The notes below the pieces were generated by a model. That model made no database searches. It saw only the letters and a program-made list of their open reading frames with translations, and was not told the origin of the DNA. A DNA stretch of 64,000 nucleotides, from the NCBI RefSeq assembly GCF_000382285.1, contig NZ_KB907925.1, forward strand, positions 434,001-498,000, given 5' to 3'. Positions 5,941-21,447 of the stretch are shown here, one piece after another. The DNA comes from Solimonas variicoloris DSM 15731 (lineage in GTDB: Bacteria; Pseudomonadota; Gammaproteobacteria; Nevskiales; Nevskiaceae). Position 1 is the stretch's first letter. Every line of letters begins with the position of its first letter. A program made the translations under genes and the position numbers.

Positions 5941-6264
5941 CTAGACCTGCGGCGCGACTTCCACCGTCAGGCCGTCGAGCGTGTCGTCGACCGGAATCTG
6001 GCACGACAGCCGCGAACTCGGCCGCAGCTCGACGAAATCGGCCAGCGCTTCGAGCATCGCCGCCTCGTCGGCGCTCCTGGCCGGCAGGCGCGGCGCCCAG
6101 GCGGCGTCGATGTAGACATGGCAGGTGCCGCAGGACATCGCGCCGCCGCAGGTGCCGTCGATGCCGAAGCCGGCGTCGCGCAGCGTCTCCATCAGCGGTG
6201 CGCCGTTCATTGCCTCGACGTCGCGCTCGGCGCCGTCGCGGTCCTTGACCCGTACAACCGTCAT
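5941..6264 (-). CDS. 2Fe-2S ferredoxin, adrenodoxin/putidaredoxin type
   Basis: 107 residues with the vertebrate-type 2Fe-2S ligand pattern: Cys39, Cys45, Cys48 in TCGGAMSCGTCHV (CX5CX2C) and a fourth Cys in RLSCQIPV near residue 87. The acidic stretch between the third and fourth Cys (ADEAAMLEALADFVEL) is the usual partner-docking helix. GGAG lies before the ATG. It follows the KshA-like Rieske oxygenase on the same strand and is the obvious electron donor candidate for it, although an intrinsic terminator separates the two. A ferredoxin reductase is not present in the window. Confidence 0.93.
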   Translation of the reverse strand: MTVVRVKDRDGAERDVEAMNGAPLMETLRDAGFGIDGTCGGAMSCGTCHVYIDAAWAPRLPARSADEAAMLEALADFVELRPSSRLSCQIPVDDTLDGLTVEVAPQV

Positions 6265-6276
6265 TCGTGACTCCAG

Positions 6277-6305
6277 AAAAAAGCCCCGGTCTCGGCGACC
6301 GGGGC
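6277..6305 (-). terminator. Intrinsic terminator between the Rieske oxygenase and ferredoxin genes
   Basis: A perfect 9-bp stem (GCCCCGGTC / GACCGGGGC) with a 5-base loop at 6283-6305, followed on the minus strand by a run of six T (6282-6277). It lies 25 bases past the Rieske oxygenase stop and 12 bases before the ferredoxin ATG, so it should end or attenuate transcripts between the two genes. Confidence 0.85.
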
Positions 6306-6330
6306 GCTGAAACGTCCGGCGGGGCTCGCG

Positions 6331-7350
6331 TCAGATCTTGGCGAGCGTCGCGGCGTCGAGGTTGGTGTAGAACTGCCGGAACCACTTGCGGAACTGCAGC
6401 ACCGGGCCGTCGCCGTCGCAGAGCAGCGGGTTCGGGCGGTACTTCTTGTTGTTCCAGACGATGAAATCGACGCTCTCGAAGCCGGCGCTCTCCTCGCCCT
6501 CGGCGGCACCGATCATGTGGTCGATGACCTTCTTCGAGGCCGCCAGCTCCGGCGTGCCGGCCGGGTAGTCGACATGGCGGAAGCTCATGTTCATGCGGCT
6601 CTTCTCGGCGCTGATCGGCTGCGTGTACGAGATCATCGTCGCGGTGATGCCGTGCTGGTTGAAGCGCATCACGTTGAGGCCCGGGCCGTAGACGTCGCCG
6701 ACGATGTAGCCCTTGCCGATGTCGAGCTTCATGCGCGGGCCGTCGTAGGTCGCCTCGACCGGCGGGATCATCGGCGCGCCGTGCAGGAACTTCAGATGCG
6801 CGGTGTCGACGCCGTTCTCGGCGATCTCCTGGATGCAGGTGTCGGCCGTCCAGCTGCCGCGGCGCGAGCCGGTGTAGCCGGTCGGATCTTCCATCTCCGG
6901 GATGTACGGCAGCTCCCAGGTCGGCTCGGCGCACAGCGGGTGATACCAGGCCCACATCATTCCGTACTTCTCGACCATCGGCAGCGTGCGCAGGATCGCC
7001 TGCTTCTTGACGATCGGCGGCGTGACCTTGCCGTACGGGATGTTCTTGCACCAGCCGGCGGTGTCGTATTCCCAGTGATGGAACGGGCAGCGGATGTGCT
7101 CGCCGCAGACCTTGCCGCCGTGGCCCATGTGCGCGCCGAGGTGCGGGCAGTACGGATCCGACATGCCGGGCTTGCCGGATTCGGTGCGGAACAGCACCCA
7201 CTCCTGGCCGAACAGCGTTACGTTGCGCAGCTCGCCGGCCTTCAGGGCGTCGGAGTAGTCGACGAAGAACCAGCCGGTCGGGATCGGGAACGGGCTGCGT
7301 TCCAGGCCCTGCGACTCGAGCAAGATCTTGAGATTGATTTGGTCACCCAT
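6331..7350 (-). CDS. Rieske non-heme iron oxygenase, KshA-like
   Basis: 339 residues. The N-terminal Rieske domain has Cys68-x-His70 (CPH) and Cys88-x2-His91 (CPFH) binding a 2Fe-2S cluster. The catalytic domain has the mononuclear iron motif at residues 178-190 (ENGVDTAHLKFLH: Asp182, His185, His190). Length, single-subunit layout and motif spacing fit the group that contains 3-ketosteroid 9alpha-hydroxylase oxygenase KshA and cholesterol 7-desaturases. GGAGG lies 10 bases before the ATG. Neighbours on the same strand are a 2Fe-2S ferredoxin, a 2OG oxygenase and an ene-reductase. The steroid assignment is an inference supported by the KstD-like gene at 28.3 kb; another terpenoid or aromatic substrate is possible. 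Confidence 0.9.
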   Translation of the reverse strand: MGDQINLKILLESQGLERSPFPIPTGWFFVDYSDALKAGELRNVTLFGQEWVLFRTESGKPGMSDPYCPHLGAHMGHGGKVCGEHIRCPFHHWEYDTAGWCKNIPYGKVTPPIVKKQAILRTLPMVEKYGMMWAWYHPLCAEPTWELPYIPEMEDPTGYTGSRRGSWTADTCIQEIAENGVDTAHLKFLHGAPMIPPVEATYDGPRMKLDIGKGYIVGDVYGPGLNVMRFNQHGITATMISYTQPISAEKSRMNMSFRHVDYPAGTPELAASKKVIDHMIGAAEGEESAGFESVDFIVWNNKKYRPNPLLCDGDGPVLQFRKWFRQFYTNLDAATLAKI

Positions 7351-7623
7351 TGCGGCCCGTCCTCCACGGCGTGCAGTTTGCGGCCCCGGCGTCCTGCCGG
7401 GCGTACAGCGAATGGTCGCCCCAAGTTTGCAGGTCGTCTTAGTCCTTTCGGGGGAGAGTGGGAAAGCGGCCCCGGCAGCGCGTCGCGCGACGATTGCGGG
7501 TAAGTCCCTAGGCCGAATTTACCGTGGCCGCACGCTAGCCGGGCGGATGCGCTCCCGGCCTATACTCGGACACAAATAATTCACAGAACGCGGCGTCAGC
7601 GCGCCGTGGGGAGCGAGGGGACG

Positions 7624-10620
7624 ATGTCGGCGAGCAAGCTGCGCAGGCTGCGCATGATGTGCGTGCTGTTCACGGCGGCCGTGCTGGCCGCGTGCGGCGG
7701 CGGTGGCGGCGGCGGCGGGAGCAACGACGGCGGCGGCGATCCGGGCGGCAGTGGCCGCACCTTCAAGATCGCGGCCGGCGAGAACGCCACGCGCGACATG
7801 ATCGCGGCCATGGTGCAGGCCGCGCCCGGCGACGTCATCGAGTTCGGCAAGGGTTACTACGAGCTGACTTCGTCCTTGCAGCTGACCAACACCGAGGACG
7901 TGCTGATCAAGGGTGCCGGCAAGGACGAGACGGTGCTCTCGTTCAAGCACAACAACTCGCCGGAAGGCATCCTCGCCGTCAACGTGCACGGCCTCACCGT
8001 GCAGGATCTCACCGTGCTCGATACCGGCGGCAACGGCATCGAGCTGCGCGGCGTCAACCACGGCACGCTGCAGCGCGTGCGCGCGATGTGGTCGTCGGGT
8101 GGCGGCCGCGAGAGCGCCGATCCGATCAACGCCACGAACTACGCCAGCCGCATCGCGGTGCCCTGCACCGATCCGGCGACGCAGGATCCGGAAGACCCGC
8201 AGAACCGCTTCGGCGACATCAGCTCGCCCGACTACACGGTCAGCAAGAAGTCGGGCCGCTACGGCATCTATCCGGTGGCATCCGAGAACATCCTGATCGA
8301 GGAAGCCGAATCGGTCGGCGCCTCGGACGCCGGCATCTACGTCGGCCAGACCAACAACGCGATCATCCGCAAGAGCCGCGCCGCCTACAACGTGTTCGGC
8401 TTCGAGATCGAGAACGTGCGCGGCGGCGAATACGACAGCAACCTCGCCGAGTGCAACACCGGCGGCTTCCTGATCTACGACCTCGACAACCTGCGCCAGT
8501 ACGGTGACCGCTCGCTGATGCACGGCAACACCGCGCGCAACAACAACACCTACAACTTCACCTCGGGCGGCATCGTCGGCAACGTGCCGTCGGGCAGCGG
8601 CATGATCACGCTGTCGTACGACCGCATCGACATCTTCAACAACACCTTCGAGAACAACAACACCGCCGGCATCATCCACACCAGCTACGAGCTGTTCCCG
8701 GAAGGCATGGGCCGGCCGAGCGAAAAGCGCATCGACTGGTACACGGAAGGCCTGCACATCTACAAGAACACCTTCAAGAACAACGGCAACCACTTGCCGC
8801 TGCCGACGCTCAACGACATCACCTCGTTCGACGTCGCCAAGATCCTGCCGGCGATCGTCGGCCTCAAGAACCAGGCGGCCTGCCTCAAGCTCGGCAACAT
8901 CGGCCAGTGCCTGAGCTCCTCGCTGCTCAACGTGCGCGGCGCGCACATCATCTGGGACGGTCTGCTCGACACCTACGACGCCAGCTGTCCGTATCCGAAG
9001 GACGCCAATGGCAACGACGTGCCCAAGGACGAACGCGGCAAGCCGCTGTTCACCAACGAGCACCCGAATCCGTCCTGCCACTACAACAAGTACAAGTTCG
9101 ACACCAGCAAGACCGGCGCGCCGCGCATCAAGCCGGACTGGTTCTCGTGCATCGATGACGACAACGACTTCAGCGCCGACAGCCTGAAGTACGCGAACTT
9201 CCACGGCACCAAGGGCCTCGAACTGCTGATCGAGAGCAAGCTCGACGTGCGCGCGATCCTGCAGTTCGCGTCCGACTTCGATATCACCCCGCACAAGTGC
9301 CAGGCGCAGTACGGCAAGAATCTGGAGCCGCTGCCGGCGGTGGTGATCCCGCCGTTCCAGCGCAGCGGCGACTACGATCCGGCGCCGAGCGACGAGCAGG
9401 TCGCCAAGCTCTGCAAGGCCAGCGTGCCGTCCGGACAGGTCAACTTCGACGCCGCCAAGGTCAACTGCCCGACGCTCGACCAGTACCACCTGTTCAGCGA
9501 TGCCGAGGATCCGACCAGCACGCCGAACGGCGGCGGCGTGCCGTACTCGCTGAACAGCAAGCTGTTCTCCGACTATGCGGTGAAGTATCGCGTCGCCTAT
9601 CTGCCGCCCGGTACCAAGGCGGTCTACCGCGACGCCGCGACCGACGGTGCGAACGCGGTGATCGTGTTCCCCGCCGGCACCATCATCGCCAAGACTTTCT
9701 CGTTCGCCGACGAGGCGAACGGCACCGAGACGCCGGTCGAGACGCGCCTGCTGATCAAGCGCACCGACGCCAAGGGGCGCGCGCGCTGGGACGGCGCCGC
9801 CTATATCTGGACGACGGAGAACGGCAAGAAGGTCGCCAAGCTTGCGCTCGGCGGCGGCACGGCGAGCGTGCACTGGGATATGACCGACGTCGATTCCGGC
9901 ATGCGCCATACCGGCGCCACGCAGAGCTATCTGATTCCGCACGCCAACCAGTGCCTCAGTTGCCACTCGCGCGAGGATCAGGAAGCCGGCTCGGCGCCGA
10001 TCGGATCGAAGGTGCGCTTCATGAACAAGCCCTTCCGCACGGAGTCGACGCGCGTCACCGGCCAGAGCCGGCACGCGGTCGCCGGCGTCAACCAGTTGCA
10101 GTACTGGTGCAGCAAGGGCCTGCTCGCCGGCTGCCCGGCCGACCTCGGTGTCAACGAGCAGCAGATCGCCACCAAGCTCGAGCGCTCGCCGGTCTTCAAC
10201 AAGCCGGGCGACACCGGCTTCGCTGCCAACTCGGCGCAGGACGTCGAGGCGCGCGCGCGCGCCTGGCTCGAGGTCAACTGCCAGCATTGCCACAACGTGC
10301 GCGGCTTCGCGGCGAGCACCGGCTTCTATCTCGATGCGCTGCGCAAGGTCGACGTCAGCTACGGCATCTGCAAGCGCCCGACCGCGACCGGCCAGGAGGG
10401 CAACGGCGGGCGCACCTACGACATCCATCCGGCGAACGTCGCCGACTCGATCGTCGAATACCGCATCGGCCCGAATGCGACGACGCCGGCCGCGCGCATG
10501 CCACCGCTGGGGCGCAGCGTCGTCGACGAGGAAGGTCATGCGCTGATCGCGCAGTGGATCCAGAACGTCACCAAGGCTGACGAGGCGGCCTATCCCGGCT
10601 CGACGAGCTGCGCGAACTAG
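7624..10620 (+). CDS. Lipoprotein fusing a parallel beta-helix domain to a diheme cytochrome c domain
   Basis: 998 residues from the ATG at 7624 (GAGGGG just upstream; an in-frame GTG at 7606 would disrupt the signal peptide). The N-terminus is a lipoprotein signal with lipobox LAAC followed by a Gly-rich flexible tether. Residues about 50-400 are a right-handed parallel beta-helix with recurring Asn-rich turns (VLIKGAG, LTVQDLTVLDTGGNGIELRG, NTFENNN, KNTFKNNG). The C-terminal 400 residues contain two heme motifs, CLSCH (777-781) and CQHCH (886-890), and resemble the SO_2930/HNE_0200-type diheme cytochrome family. In other genomes I recall the beta-helix and the cytochrome as separate neighbouring genes; here they are one frame with no break. 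Likely periplasmic or outer-membrane anchored; function unknown. At least eight further Cys in the middle section may form disulfides. Confidence 0.9.
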   Translation: MSASKLRRLRMMCVLFTAAVLAACGGGGGGGGSNDGGGDPGGSGRTFKIAAGENATRDMIAAMVQAAPGDVIEFGKGYYELTSSLQLTNTEDVLIKGAGKDETVLSFKHNNSPEGILAVNVHGLTVQDLTVLDTGGNGIELRGVNHGTLQRVRAMWSSGGGRESADPINATNYASRIAVPCTDPATQDPEDPQNRFGDISSPDYTVSKKSGRYGIYPVASENILIEEAESVGASDAGIYVGQTNNAIIRKSRAAYNVFGFEIENVRGGEYDSNLAECNTGGFLIYDLDNLRQYGDRSLMHGNTARNNNTYNFTSGGIVGNVPSGSGMITLSYDRIDIFNNTFENNNTAGIIHTSYELFPEGMGRPSEKRIDWYTEGLHIYKNTFKNNGNHLPLPTLNDITSFDVAKILPAIVGLKNQAACLKLGNIGQCLSSSLLNVRGAHIIWDGLLDTYDASCPYPKDANGNDVPKDERGKPLFTNEHPNPSCHYNKYKFDTSKTGAPRIKPDWFSCIDDDNDFSADSLKYANFHGTKGLELLIESKLDVRAILQFASDFDITPHKCQAQYGKNLEPLPAVVIPPFQRSGDYDPAPSDEQVAKLCKASVPSGQVNFDAAKVNCPTLDQYHLFSDAEDPTSTPNGGGVPYSLNSKLFSDYAVKYRVAYLPPGTKAVYRDAATDGANAVIVFPAGTIIAKTFSFADEANGTETPVETRLLIKRTDAKGRARWDGAAYIWTTENGKKVAKLALGGGTASVHWDMTDVDSGMRHTGATQSYLIPHANQCLSCHSREDQEAGSAPIGSKVRFMNKPFRTESTRVTGQSRHAVAGVNQLQYWCSKGLLAGCPADLGVNEQQIATKLERSPVFNKPGDTGFAANSAQDVEARARAWLEVNCQHCHNVRGFAASTGFYLDALRKVDVSYGICKRPTATGQEGNGGRTYDIHPANVADSIVEYRIGPNATTPAARMPPLGRSVVDEEGHALIAQWIQNVTKADEAAYPGSTSCAN

Positions 10621-10649
10621 CGCGTCCCGCTCGTTTCGCCTGCTGCAGA

Positions 10650-10677
10650 ACAAAGGCCCGCACCCGCGGGCCTTTGT
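10650..10677 (+). terminator. Bidirectional intrinsic terminator
   Basis: A perfect 12-bp inverted repeat (ACAAAGGCCCGC and its complement) with a 4-base loop lies 30 bases after the beta-helix/cytochrome gene. Each outer end carries TTTGT, so it can work in both directions between this gene and the convergent pseudouridine synthase gene. Confidence 0.85.
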
Positions 10678-16453: not shown

Positions 16454-17506
16454 TCAGGCCGCGCTGGCCGTCTTCAGCAAGCCGCGCTCGCGCGCCATGG
16501 TGATGGCGGTGTCCTCGATCATGTCTTCCTGGCCGCCGACCATCTTCTGGCGGCCGAGCTCGAGCAGGATCTCGCGCGCCGGCACGCCGTACTTGGCTTC
16601 GGCGCGTTTGGCGAATAGCAGGAAGCTCGAATAGACGCCGGCGTAGCCGAGCGTCAGCGAGTTGCGGTCGATGCGCACCGGGAAGTCCATGATCGGCGTA
16701 ACCAGGTCCTCGGCGACGTCGCTGACCTTGAACACGTCGACGCCGGTCTCGATGCCCATGCGGTTGCACACGGCCACGAACACTTCCATCGGCGTGTTGC
16801 CGGCGCCGGCGCCCATGCCGCCGCAGGCGCAGTCGATGCGCCGCGCGCCGGCGGCGACCGCGGCGATCGAGTTGGCGACGCCCATCGACAGGTTGTGGTG
16901 GCCGTGGAAACCGATCTCGGTCTCGGGCTTCAGCGCTTCGCGCAGCGCGCCGATGCGCGCCGTGACGTCGTCCGGCAGCATGTAGCCGGCCGAGTCGGTC
17001 GCGTAGATGCAGTTTGCGCCGTAGCTTTCCATCAGCCTGGCCTGCTCGATGAGCTGCGCCGGCTCGATCATGTGCGCCATCATCAGGAAGCCGACGGTGT
17101 CGAGGCCCATCTTGCGGCCGAGGCTGATGTGCTGCTCGGAGACGTCGGCTTCCGTGCAGTGCGTGGCGACGCGGATCGTCGGCACGCCGCAGTCCGCCGC
17201 CATCTTCAGGTGATCGACCGTGCCGATGCCCGGCAGCAGCAGGGCACTGACTTTCGCCTGCTTGAGCAGCGGAATCACCGCGCGCAGGTATTCCTCGTCG
17301 CTCGCCGCCGGGAAGCCGTAGTTGACCGACGCGCCGCCCAGGCCGTCGCCGTGCGTGACCTCGATCAGCGGCACGCCCGCTTCGTCGAGACCCTTGGCGA
17401 TGGTCTTCATCTGCTCGATCGTGATCTGGTGCCGCTTCGGGTGCATGCCGTCGCGCAGCGACATGTCGTGCACCTTGATGCTGATGCCCTTGATATTCTG
17501 GCTCAT
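16454..17506 (-). CDS. dmpG: 4-hydroxy-2-oxovalerate (4-hydroxy-2-oxohexanoate) aldolase
   Basis: 350 residues, the usual length for DmpG/MhpE/BphI/TesG aldolases. The N-terminal metal and substrate motif [10 protein letters not shown] (Arg and Asp of the active site) and the metal-binding [15 protein letters not shown] are both intact, as is the C-terminal domain that channels aldehyde to the partner dehydrogenase. It cleaves 4-hydroxy-2-oxoacids to pyruvate plus an aldehyde. AAGGAG precedes the ATG at 17506. The acylating aldehyde dehydrogenase gene is immediately upstream, separated by a 144-base gap that holds an inverted-repeat element. The pairing as a channelling complex is known for the family. 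Confidence 0.95.
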
Positions 17507-17530
17507 TGCAAAAAACTCCTTCGTCTTGCT

Positions 17531-17643
17531 CCCCTCTCCCGCCTGCGGCAGAGGGGTTGGGGGAAAGGGCCGCGCGTCGGCGCGGAAGCTCGCCGGCTGC
17601 GCTGGCGCTCTCTCCCTGACCCTCTCCCGCAAGCGGGAGAGGG
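17531..17643. repeat. Two GC-rich hairpin elements of an interspersed repeat type
   Basis: Two related inverted repeats lie in the gap between aldolase and dehydrogenase genes. At 17531-17556 CCCCTCT pairs with AGAGGGG; at 17620-17643 an 11-bp perfect stem, CCCTCTCCCGC with its complement, closes on a 2-base loop. Both are built on the CCCTCTCCC / GGGAGAGGG theme that recurs between genes in many high-GC proteobacteria. It may stabilise or attenuate the operon mRNA. Confidence 0.65.
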
Positions 17644-17650
17644 AATGGGT

Positions 17651-18559
17651 TCAGGCCGCTTCGAGCGTCAGCCGCCCGGAGAGGATTTCCTCGGCGAACA
17701 TCTCGGCGGTGCGCGTCGCGCTCGCGGTCATGATGTCGAGATTGCCGGCGTACTTCGGCAGGAAGTCGCCGAGTCCTTCGACCTGCATGAAGCTGGTCAC
17801 GCGATGGCCGTCGAACACCGGGCCGTTGACGAGGCGGTAGCCCGGCACGTACTTCTGCACTTCGGCGACCATGTCGCGCACCGAAGCTTCGATTTCCTTC
17901 TGCTTCGGCTCGTCGACCGTCAGGCAGTGGATGGTGTCGCGCATGATCAGCGGCGGGTCGGCCGGGTTGATGACGATGATCGCCTTGCCCTGATCGGCGC
18001 CGCCGATCTTGGCGACCGCGCCGGCCGTGGTGCGCGTGAACTCGTCGATGTTCTTGCGCGTGCCGGGGCCGACCGACTTGCTCGACACCGTGGCGATGAT
18101 CTCGGCGTACTTCACCTTCTGCACGCGCGACACGGCATAGACCATCGGGATCGTCGCCTGGCCACCGCAGGTGACCATGTTGACGTTCATCTCGCGCTTG
18201 CCGGCGTGCTCCTTGAGATTGATCGGCGGCACGCAGTACGGGCCGATCGCCGCCGGCGTGAGATCGATCATCATCACACCGAGCGCGTTGAGCTTGTCGG
18301 AGTTGTCCTTGTGCACGTAGGCGCTGGTCGCGTCGAAGGCGATCTGCACGCCGTCGGCCTTGACGTGCGGCACCAGGCCGTCAACGCCCTTGTCGGTCGT
18401 CTTCAGGCCGTACTCACGCGCCCGCGCCAGACCTTCCGAGCTCGGGTCGACGCCGACCATCCACACCGGTTCGAGCACCTTCGAGCGGCGCAGCTTGTAG
18501 AGCAGATCGGTGCCGATGTTGCCGGGACCGATGATGGCGCATTTGATTTTCTGTGACAT
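17651..18559 (-). CDS. dmpF: Acetaldehyde/propionaldehyde dehydrogenase (CoA-acylating)
   Basis: 302 residues, matching the short DmpF/MhpF/BphJ/TesF family. Nucleotide-binding GPGNIGTDL at residues 10-18; catalytic Cys in [12 protein letters not shown] near residue 130; conserved [10 protein letters not shown] and INPADPP motifs. It converts the aldehyde released by the aldolase to acetyl-CoA or propionyl-CoA with NAD+ and CoA. It begins 7 bases after the hydratase stop, so the two are one transcript. The substrate chain length cannot be read directly. Confidence 0.95.
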
Positions 18560-18566
18560 CGCGATG

Positions 18567-19364
18567 CTAAGCCTCGAAGCCGATAGCCGCTTCGCCGATG
18601 CCGGCGAGCGTCAGGTGGAAACGGTCGCCCGGCACCGCCGGCAGCAGCGGCGCCAGCGAACCGGACAGGATGATTTCGCCCTTCAGGAAGGGAATGCCGT
18701 AGCGGCCGAGCGTGTTGGCGAGCCAGGCGACTGCGGTCGCCGGATGGCCCTGCACGGCGGCGCCGGTGCCGGACGCGGCGTGCGCGCCGTTCTTGGTGAT
18801 GTCCATCTTCACCGCGGCGAGATCGAGCGCGTGCGGCCGGACGCGATCATCGCCGACCACGAACACGCCGCAGGAGGCGTTGTCGGCGACGGTGTCCTGG
18901 ATCCGGATCTTCCAGTCGTCGATGCGCGAATCGACGATCTCGAAGCAGGGCAGCACGTAGTCGGTCGCGTCGAGCACCTGATCCTCGGTAACGCCCGGCC
19001 CCTTGAGATCCTTCTTCAGCACGAAGGCGATCTCGCCCTCGGCGCGCGGCTGGATCAGGCCGGCAGCGGCGATGCCGACGACGGCGCCGTTGTTCACCTG
19101 CATGCGGTCGGTCAGAAAGCCGAAGTCCGGCTGGTGCACGCCGAGCATGTCCTGCACCGGCTTGCTGGTGACGCCGATCTTTTTGCCGATCAGCTTCTCG
19201 CCGTCAGCGAGGCGGCGGTGCAGGAAGTGCAGCGAGATGTTGTAGGCGTCGTCGATGTCGATGCCATCGACGCGTCCCGACAGCGGCGCGATCGTGCGGC
19301 GCGCGCGCAGTGCGGTATACAGCTCGTCGCCGAGCGCGACGATGGATGTCTGGGGCAGGGCCAT
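18567..19364 (-). CDS. 2-keto-4-pentenoate / 2-hydroxyhexa-2,4-dienoate hydratase
   Basis: 265 residues of the DmpE/MhpD/TesE hydratase family (fumarylacetoacetase-like fold). Metal-binding acidic residues sit in AEGEIAFVL and CFEIVDSRI; the conserved [15 protein letters not shown] near residue 60 and the C-terminal SGSLAPLLP are family features. It adds water to a 2-hydroxydienoate to form the 4-hydroxy-2-oxoacid used by the aldolase. Its ATG lies 4 bases after the hydrolase stop, showing tight coupling. Confidence 0.93.
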
Positions 19365-19368
19365 CGCG

Positions 19369-20220
19369 TCAGCCGTTCCGCAGGAAGTCGGCGACCATGC
19401 GATTGAAGAACTCGCGATGCTCGACCATCACCCAGTGCCCGCAGTTCGGCACCGTGATCATGCGCAGATTGGGAATGCCCTTGGCGAGCTTGAGGATGCC
19501 GGTCTCCGGCATCATCTTCTCGTTGATGCCCCAGAAGGCGAGCGCCGGGCAGCGGATTTCGCCGAGGCGCGCCGTCATGTTCGGCACCTTCATCGTCTTG
19601 ACGACCTGCGGGTTCTGCAGGCGCATCAGCGCGTGGCGCTCGGCGACCAGCGCATCGTCGATCAGCGACTTGTCGTGGACCAGCGCGTTTTCCATGAAGT
19701 AGCGCAGGCGTTCCGACGTCACCGGTTCCGCCGACATGAACACTTCCTTCATGAACGCCATCGCCGGCATCTTGAAGTAGTCCGGCTGGTCCTCGACGCC
19801 GCCCGGCGCCATCAGCACCAGCTTCTCGACCTGCTGCGGATAGTCGAGCGCGTAGCCGAGCGCGATCGCGCCGCCCAGCGAGTTGCCGATCAGCGTGCAT
19901 TTCGCGATGCCGATCTGATCGAGCGTCTGCTTCACGCACTCGATGAAGAACGACAGCGGGTACTCGACGTCGTCCGGCTTGTCCGAATAGCCGTAGCCGA
20001 TCAGGTCCGGCAGGATCACGCGGTACCCGGCGGCGACCAGCTCCCGATAGTTGCCCTTGAAGTTCGAGTAACCGCAGGCGCCGGAGCCGGAGCCGTGCAG
20101 GAACACGACGACCGGACCCTGTCCTTCGTCGAGATAGTGGATGCGATAGCCGTTCGGCAGCTGCGCGTACCGGCCTTCGGGAACCGGCTTGCTGGGAGTG
20201 TTTTGCGCGGGGGCGTTCAT
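19369..20220 (-). CDS. Meta-cleavage-product alpha/beta hydrolase (C-C bond hydrolase)
   Basis: 283 residues from the ATG at 20220 (AGGA upstream); an in-frame ATG at 20253 is a possible alternative. Alpha/beta hydrolase fold with oxyanion motif HGSGSGACGYSNF, nucleophile Ser in IGNSLGG near residue 110 and catalytic His in NCGHWVMVEH. The position of the acid residue reads WGINEKMMP, where relatives such as HsaD or BphD have Asp, so Glu may serve. It should hydrolyse a ring-cleavage product into the 2-hydroxydienoate handled by the next gene. It is the first gene of the operon hydrolase-hydratase-dehydrogenase-aldolase-SDR. Confidence 0.9.
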   Translation of the reverse strand: MNAPAQNTPSKPVPEGRYAQLPNGYRIHYLDEGQGPVVVFLHGSGSGACGYSNFKGNYRELVAAGYRVILPDLIGYGYSDKPDDVEYPLSFFIECVKQTLDQIGIAKCTLIGNSLGGAIALGYALDYPQQVEKLVLMAPGGVEDQPDYFKMPAMAFMKEVFMSAEPVTSERLRYFMENALVHDKSLIDDALVAERHALMRLQNPQVVKTMKVPNMTARLGEIRCPALAFWGINEKMMPETGILKLAKGIPNLRMITVPNCGHWVMVEHREFFNRMVADFLRNG

Positions 20221-20322
20221 CGTCCTGGCCTTGGCGGCACGTGTGGCCGGCATGGTCCCGCATGCGAGGCCCCGCACTCTTCGTCCTTTTGGGTGATCGG
20301 CCGGCGCCTGCGGCCGCGATGG

Positions 20323-21384
20323 CTATCCGCCGTGCGCCGGCCCGGCGAAATGCCGTTGCCGGTATTCGCCCGGAGGCAGGCCGAGCCAGCTCTTGAATGC
20401 GGCGGTGAAGGAGCTTTGCTCGCCGTAGCCCAGCAGCAGCGTGATTTCGGACAGGCCCAGATCCGGCTGGGCGAGGTAGTGCAGTGCCAGTTCGCGACGC
20501 ACCTGCACGAGCAGATCGCCGAACGACACGTGCTCGGCCTGCAGACGGCGGCGCAGGCTGCGCTCGCTCAGGTCCAGCGCCTGCGCGACCTCCGAAGCCG
20601 TCGGCGCCCGCTGCGGCAGGCGCTGGCGGATGGCCACGACCACGCGCGGCGTCAGTTGCGCGCCGTGAATCTGCTGCAGCTGTTCGCGCGCCCTTTGCTC
20701 CATCAGCAGGCGCAATTGCGCGTCGTGCTGGACCAGCGGCGTCGCCAGCAGGGCGATGTCGAAGCTCAGGGCGTTGTCTTCGGCATTGAAGCGCACCGGG
20801 CAGCCGAACAGGCGCTCGTACTCGTTCCCGCCGGTCGGCCGCCGGTGCTGGAAGCAGGCTTCGCGGATCTCGCCGCGGATGCCGGTGATCCAGCGCCCGA
20901 AGCTGAGCCAGCCGGCGACGATCGCTTCGTTGACCGGGCGCATGCGCTCGCCGTCCGGCATGCCGGAGCGCCAGGCCAGCCGCACCCGTCCGCCGCTGGT
21001 GCTCACCACCGTGCTGCCGCCGTCGTAGACCAGGCTTTCGTAGCGCGGGATCAAGGCCACCGCTTCGCCGAGCGTGTTGCAGCTCATGGCCGCGTAGCCC
21101 AGCGCGCTGAAGGTGCGCGGCCGCACCTGCATGCCCATGTGCAGGCCGATCAGGTCGTCGCCGCCGGCGTGGCGCGCGAGGTCGAACAAACGCAGCAGAC
21201 CGTTGAGGTCGAGACGCCAGGCGGGATCGTCGAGATGCCGCATTTCGATGCCGGCTTCGGTCGCAAGCCGGCTGCGCTCGACGCCGCGCGCCGTGGCCGT
21301 ATCGAGCAGCGCCTGGACATAAGCCGCCGATACCGAGCCGAGCACCGACTGGCCGTTGTGCCTAAGGATCTGGCCGGCCGTCAT
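20323..21384 (-). CDS. AraC-family transcriptional regulator
   Basis: 353 residues from the ATG at 21384; an ATG at 21423 in frame is also possible. The N-terminal about 200 residues match the arabinose-binding-like ligand domain (PF12625 type) found in OruR/ArgR-like AraC regulators. The C-terminal AraC DNA-binding domain has two helix-turn-helices (ASEVAQALDLSERSLRRRL and LSEITLLLGYGEQSSFTAAF) and ends with the LPPGEYRQ signature. It lies directly upstream of, and on the same strand as, the lower-pathway operon, with 102 bases between them, so it probably controls that operon. It could equally act on the divergent membrane protein operon 63 bases away. Confidence 0.93.
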   Translation of the reverse strand: MTAGQILRHNGQSVLGSVSAAYVQALLDTATARGVERSRLATEAGIEMRHLDDPAWRLDLNGLLRLFDLARHAGGDDLIGLHMGMQVRPRTFSALGYAAMSCNTLGEAVALIPRYESLVYDGGSTVVSTSGGRVRLAWRSGMPDGERMRPVNEAIVAGWLSFGRWITGIRGEIREACFQHRRPTGGNEYERLFGCPVRFNAEDNALSFDIALLATPLVQHDAQLRLLMEQRAREQLQQIHGAQLTPRVVVAIRQRLPQRAPTASEVAQALDLSERSLRRRLQAEHVSFGDLLVQVRRELALHYLAQPDLGLSEITLLLGYGEQSSFTAAFKSWLGLPPGEYRQRHFAGPAHGG

Positions 21385-21447
21385 TACCGCAGCTTGGCGT
21401 GGCGACGGAAAAATACCGCGCATCTATTTTTGTTCTCCCCGGTCCTC

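Follow-up and report, generated by a model that had tools for sequence, protein, structure and literature searches.

A beta-helix lipoprotein fused to a diheme cytochrome in Solimonas variicoloris, with a probably cytochrome P460-like first heme domain

In a 64,000-nucleotide stretch of the genome of Solimonas variicoloris DSM 15731 (hereafter the window), a single frame joins a lipoprotein signal, a parallel beta-helix and a C-terminal part with two CxxCH motifs. We asked whether this fusion is particular to one genome, what each half resembles and what a protein built in this way may do.

Anatomy of the fused protein

The domain layout was well supported. Translation of 7624-10620 (+) yielded 998 residues and one terminal stop in an uninterrupted frame; translation and profiles together confirmed the lipobox, Gly tether, beta-helix and two CxxCH motifs described in the earlier note, which had also placed the motifs correctly (residues 777-781 and 886-890). 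A GTG at 7606 opens the same frame upstream. The features of the gene are:

7624..10620, + strand: fused gene, 998 amino acids, encoding a lipoprotein with beta-helix, P460-like heme domain and class I-like cytochrome c (translation, profiles, model, homologous loci)
7624..7695, + strand: predicted signal peptide with lipobox LAAC and lipid-bearing Cys24 (sequence)
7696..7755, + strand: Gly-rich tether, residues 25-44 (translation; AlphaFold2 pLDDT)
7756..8793, + strand: right-handed parallel beta-helix, residues 45-390 (NCBIfam, Pfam, AlphaFold2, structural alignment, conservation)
8821..9393, + strand: middle region, residues 400-590 (profile scores, structural alignment)
9439..10146, + strand: first heme domain, residues 606-841, cytochrome P460/c'-beta-like (structural and profile comparison)
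9589..9591, + strand: Arg656, alignment counterpart of the capping Arg50 in M. capsulatus P460 (62/62 sequences)
9691..9693, + strand: Lys690, alignment counterpart of Lys78, which cross-links to heme in M. capsulatus P460 (62/62 sequences)
9952..9966, + strand: heme 1 site CLSCH, residues 777-781 (translation, conservation)
10225..10578, + strand: second heme domain, class I cytochrome c-like, residues 868-985 (AlphaFold2; Cytochrom_C below cut-off)
10279..10293, + strand: heme 2 site CQHCH, residues 886-890 (translation, conservation)
10498..10500, + strand: Met959, probable distal ligand of heme 2 (62/62 sequences)

The lipobox LAAC, ending in Cys24 and followed by GGGGGGGGSNDGGGDPGGSG, bore out the lipoprotein signal. 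A lax lipobox pattern was found in 15/18 fused proteins, and in 10/29 helix and 13/29 heme proteins of the split form. The AlphaFold2 model, built from an alignment of 39 sequences, had a mean pLDDT of 80 and a pTM of 0.80, with residues 1-42 at a pLDDT under 50. An antisense open frame of 1044 amino acids (7519-10653, minus strand), longer than the fused gene itself, is likely an effect of high GC content.

The helix half matched NCBIfam family TIGR03805 (beta_helix_1) with 233.4 bits, above the curated cut-off of 141.5, and Pfam Beta_helix with an E-value of 1.1e-9; the AlphaFold2 model also gave a beta-helix. Its polar face was nearly invariant (Y213, D235, Y239, E261, E263, N264, N273, N278, N302 and N307), with Tyr213 and Tyr239 each kept in 60/61 beta-helices when all forms were pooled; a 55-row helix conservation count excluded L112 and L113. 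Mannuronan C5-epimerases AlgE4 and AlgE6, the polysaccharide lyase RbmB and NosD share the parallel beta-helix fold; in the fused protein a heme part is attached, and none of these proteins was among the two weak, partial matches returned by a profile search of the helix half against solved proteins. A sequence search against solved structures gave no strong match for either half. Structural alignments of the helix extended to about residue 560, into the middle region, for which strong scores were confined to the subclade of the window and sister fused proteins scored weakly.

TIGR03806, the family of SO2930-type diheme c-type cytochromes, aligned with the cytochrome half from position 1 to 313 of its 314 (E 8e-78), with a score of 261.7 bits that did not reach the curated cut-off of 313.3 bits. 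In the bacterial family of the window, a match over this cut-off occurred in 1/50 genomes. The half is a diverged relative of TIGR03806, as elsewhere in its bacterial family. Two CxxCH motifs and a distal Met for heme 2, which in our reading define the TIGR03806 family, were present in 56/56 heme halves; the long-frame heme rows L133, L136, L145, L146 and L151 and the short, far outlying copy L140 were kept outside these 56-row counts and then shown apart, and L138 scored too low to enter the heme set. Pfam Cytochrom_C scored 18.4 bits on the second heme domain, below its cut-off of 21.3. Met959 was invariant in 62/62 sequences, and heme 2, with His890 and Met959 as its predicted ligands, is by sequence an ordinary electron carrier.

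Occurrence of the fusion and partners of the two halves

With the whole protein as query, genome contigs yielded 69 related loci in Solimonas, Hydrocarboniphaga, Stagnimonas, Algiphilus, Alcanivorax, Alloalcanivorax, Marinobacter and other genera, the closest in Solimonas flava (96 percent in the best segment). Both halves lay in one frame in 64/69 loci; among the remaining five, L056 had two frames, L067 was in pieces, and L052, L065 and L066 started at a contig end. Since the scan was seeded with this protein, it favours fused forms. Pairing was counted in an even draw of 397 Pseudomonadota genomes, of which 50 had a strong TIGR03806 match (E under 1e-40, a threshold that we set) and 53 had TIGR03805 over its cut-off. 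Both halves were present in 47 genomes, and in 47/47 they were adjacent, on the same strand and with the helix first, as separate genes in 39 and fused in eight. The statement in the earlier note that the halves occur as separate adjacent genes in other bacteria held for 39/47 genomes, and the contrary case that it named, in which all homologues are already fused, did not occur.

In the bacterial family of the window, TIGR03806 matched at an E-value of 0.001 or better in 41/50 genomes, mostly in frames of about 1000 residues. In quick domain trees with SH-aLRT support only, drawing on a thinned set of loci 2-70 (21/70, window included), the window belonged to a wholly fused 36-row group with a support of 100 in the heme tree and 86 in the helix tree. 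L114 and L131 formed a separate group of fused proteins, so that the halves either joined twice or joined once, with later losses. The earlier note was right that the fusion is real; the placement of the window in the 36-row group adds that this architecture is long-standing and conserved, not a one-off. An accident of a single genome, a frameshift or a sequencing artefact was ruled out by the intact fused frame in 64/69 loci, and the accident and the frameshift were also contradicted by the presence of the 36-row group in both trees. We take it that the TIGRFAM notes already say that TIGR03805 and TIGR03806 proteins may be fused. The gene directly after the fused beta-helix/diheme gene at L114:6623-10563 also encodes a diheme protein, and a few genes further lies one for a VolA-type phospholipase; our guess is that this layout is that of SO_2931/SO_2930 in Shewanella.

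The fused protein shares the order helix then cytochrome with the TIGR03805/TIGR03806 pairs and matches both families over most of their profiles. It differs from the pairs in being fused, in having about 190 additional residues in the middle and in a cytochrome half that scores below the curated cut-off. Already known are the NCBIfam names of both halves; neither family has a named function. In the available text of PMC3584217, TIGR03805 appears as a gene annotation only, and term searches in the accessible parts of two proteomics papers (PMC7822026, PMC6850023) returned no mention of a helix protein. Among the matches listed for beta-helix with Alcanivorax/Marinobacter and for MauG with beta-helix in the open-licence literature, there was no study of this protein.

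Each half also had other fusion partners, which are new here. Three genomes of the 397 had the cytochrome half without the helix, in long frames. In the one of these examined (G204, locus L133), and in L145 and L151 from the bacterial family of the window, the same kind of C-terminal heme module was fused to a glucose/sorbosone dehydrogenase domain (PF07995), so that two of the three scanned fusions were from that family. In these proteins a domain of the PQQ-dehydrogenase type takes the place of the beta-helix.

L145:7978-10215, L151:8136-10766 and L133:6869-10456: dehydrogenase/diheme fusions (PF07995)

Conversely, in six genomes with the helix and without the SO2930 half, the helix protein bore its own C-terminal CxxCH; most beta-helices of this family seen here therefore travel with a c-type heme protein. 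The exceptions, L113 and L190, came from other searches and had no heme partner seen beside the helix, and the TIGR03805 match of L190 was below the family cut-off. The neighbour-count script classed L111 as solo; its record annotates an adjacent SO2930 gene. The one-heme proteins (L184-L189 and L112) are a second fusion type, with a further cytochrome c gene nearby in most. Of three scanned, L186 and L188 had a Pfam cytochrome c match over the cut-off, and L112 a sub-threshold one.

In these six genomes and in Ruegeria pomeroyi, a MauG/CCP-type diheme gene lay within three genes of the one-heme helix gene (7/7 loci); by profile, membership of the MauG/CCP family was confirmed in L186 and fell below the cut-off in L112. 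Together with the conservation of Tyr213 and Tyr239, these neighbours could point to a protein-modifying pair, in which the heme part oxidises conserved Tyr residues of its own helix to a cofactor in the manner of MauG-type enzymes. We consider this very unlikely, given that the SO2930 module had no MauG/CCP match in Pfam (PF03150, none in the fused protein at E-values up to 1) and that Tyr is a common ligand-binding residue in the beta-helix fold.

The first heme domain and a possible function

The best 11 structural rows for the first heme domain, representing five distinct proteins, were all cytochrome P460/c'-beta, at low Z, and profile comparison pointed to the same superfamily. With only the heme half as query, Foldseek returned nothing below an E-value of 0.001. 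Among 62 heme halves compared with a P460 profile, the highest score was 17.9 bits (4.0 for shuffled sequences), and three of the four alignments printed were confined to the core and separate heme motifs. For Pfam PF16694 (gathering score 27), the window scored 7.7 bits and the best of five scanned sequences 19.4, neither reaching the cut-off. A P460/c'-beta-type fold is probable. The CxxCH lies at the C-terminal end, as in that superfamily, and two of its key positions were filled in 62/62 sequences: the cross-link position by Lys690 and the capping position by Arg656. In contrast, the position of the P460 distal carboxylate (Asp102/Glu96) was taken by Arg708 in the alignment spanning it (L115), with Glu706 two residues away. 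Solved P460/c'-beta chains have 135-196 residues, whereas here the domain is part of a chain that also carries the beta-helix and another heme domain. No conserved distal His or Met for heme 1 was seen across the compared heme halves, which makes an open heme 1 site probable. The simple electron carrier of the earlier note is not supported for both hemes. By the available tests the fused protein is not a cytochrome P460, and its first heme may work like one. Heme 1 is similar to the catalytic heme of cytochrome P460, itself unusual, so the protein may be more than a wire and act as an enzyme. This resemblance of the SO2930-type first heme domain is new here; no P460 assignment or study of this protein was found among the matches listed in the open-licence literature.

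The domains, the conserved residues and the constant pairing of the halves are supported by computation. The explanation that best accommodates them, which we put forward tentatively, is a redox enzyme tethered to the membrane, whose beta-helix docks a ligand. The lipid anchor would hold the protein at the outer membrane, on its periplasmic or its external face, and the helix would dock a ligand, probably glycan-like or another polar extended molecule, along its nearly invariant Tyr/Asp/Glu/Asn face. Heme 1, whose distal side in the P460/c'-beta-like domain would be open and bordered by the invariant Lys690, Arg656, Arg708 and Glu706, would be the ligand-binding and probably catalytic centre. 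Heme 2 would be the exit, handing the electron to a soluble cytochrome c. We infer the open site, the outer-membrane location and the direction of electron flow, and likewise catalysis and the nature of the substrate.

Of the two functions suggested earlier, oxidation of a bound ligand fits better than extracellular electron transfer. The latter is not supported: conduit partners were sought among the neighbouring genes, and Mtr-type Pfam matches were only sub-threshold (MtrC-type PF22113, 16.5 bits at a cut-off of 30). A plain electron conduit along the lines of the earlier note, in which the helix merely positions a diheme carrier at the outer membrane and neither heme is catalytic, would suit the two CxxCH motifs, the lipoprotein signal and the fusion of the heme module to dehydrogenase domains in relatives; the accessible part of PMC4837345 counts SO_2930 and SO_2931 among the c-type cytochromes of Shewanella that are located in the outer membrane or outside the cell. 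The P460 pocket residues of heme 1 and its lack of a conserved distal ligand argue against this alternative, as do the sub-threshold Mtr-type matches, and we regard it as rather doubtful.

Heme 1 could alternatively bind NO or CO for protection or sensing, like cytochrome c'-beta, with the helix docking it on the envelope. Structures of c'-beta were among the top structural rows, including the first, and gas binding in c'-beta pockets is proposed in the consulted part of a review (PMC11928373). According to Table 2 of that review, however, c'-beta has Met or Phe at the position of the P460 cross-linking Lys, where all 62 sequences here have Lys, and gas handling leaves the constant beta-helix partner unexplained; we consider it quite unlikely.

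With the tethered redox enzyme, a widespread family pair without known function gains a first structural handle in the predicted P460-like open heme and constant helix partner. If true, P460 chemistry would not be limited to hydroxylamine oxidation and would also serve an envelope enzyme found in oil degraders and many further bacteria. A doubtful extension would be that the SO2930 family as a whole carries a P460-type heme cross-linked via Lys690, forming envelope-anchored oxidative enzymes outside the nitrogen cycle to which a beta-helix or PQQ dehydrogenase domain delivers substrate or electrons.

Genomic context and alkane use

The surroundings of the fused gene in the window suggest no partner: upstream lies a divergent Rieske-type gene, downstream a convergent RluA-type gene, and between them the fused gene is on its own. 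At 5941-7350, the Rieske-type oxygenase gene, with a CPH..CPFHH motif read by eye and no NCBIfam match at an E-value of 1e-20, is accompanied by a ferredoxin-like gene. Elsewhere, an M19-like lipoprotein gene, identified as such from one representative, lay directly upstream in 37/70 loci (the 69 and the window), nearly all from Marinobacter, Alcanivorax and their kin. In the window genome a relative of this lipoprotein (L240, 45 percent) is on another contig, and it was therefore rejected as an obligate partner.

The fused loci were found mostly in Alcanivorax, Marinobacter, Solimonas and Hydrocarboniphaga, which we take to be oil degraders, and the protein could act in one step of using hydrocarbons or surfactants at the cell surface. 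An AlkB-type protein was encoded in 4/4 genomes of the window clade in the sample versus 68/397 overall (Fisher p 0.0008, with kinship ignored and small n), and the window genome itself has three AlkB-type alkane hydroxylases (L232, L233 and L235). Against this, AlkB was found in 0/4 genomes with other fused forms, and neither gene adjoining the fused gene in the window is an alkane hydroxylase. For split pairs there was no AlkB link (8/39, p 0.5), and an alkane link for the whole family was rejected. We consider a role in hydrocarbon use unlikely. The AlkB-type frame of L233 also holds a rubredoxin-like tail, as read by eye.

TonB-receptor/AraC genes occurred within three genes in 9/29 split, 4/7 one-heme and 3/18 fused loci, counted as sequence clusters; these raw counts hint at an association. 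Further along the window (16454-21423, minus strand) lies a meta-cleavage-type cluster with an aldolase, an acetaldehyde dehydrogenase, a hydratase-like protein, a BphD/HsaD-like hydrolase and a QhpR-like AraC regulator, which we read as a cluster for the degradation of aromatic or steroid rings.
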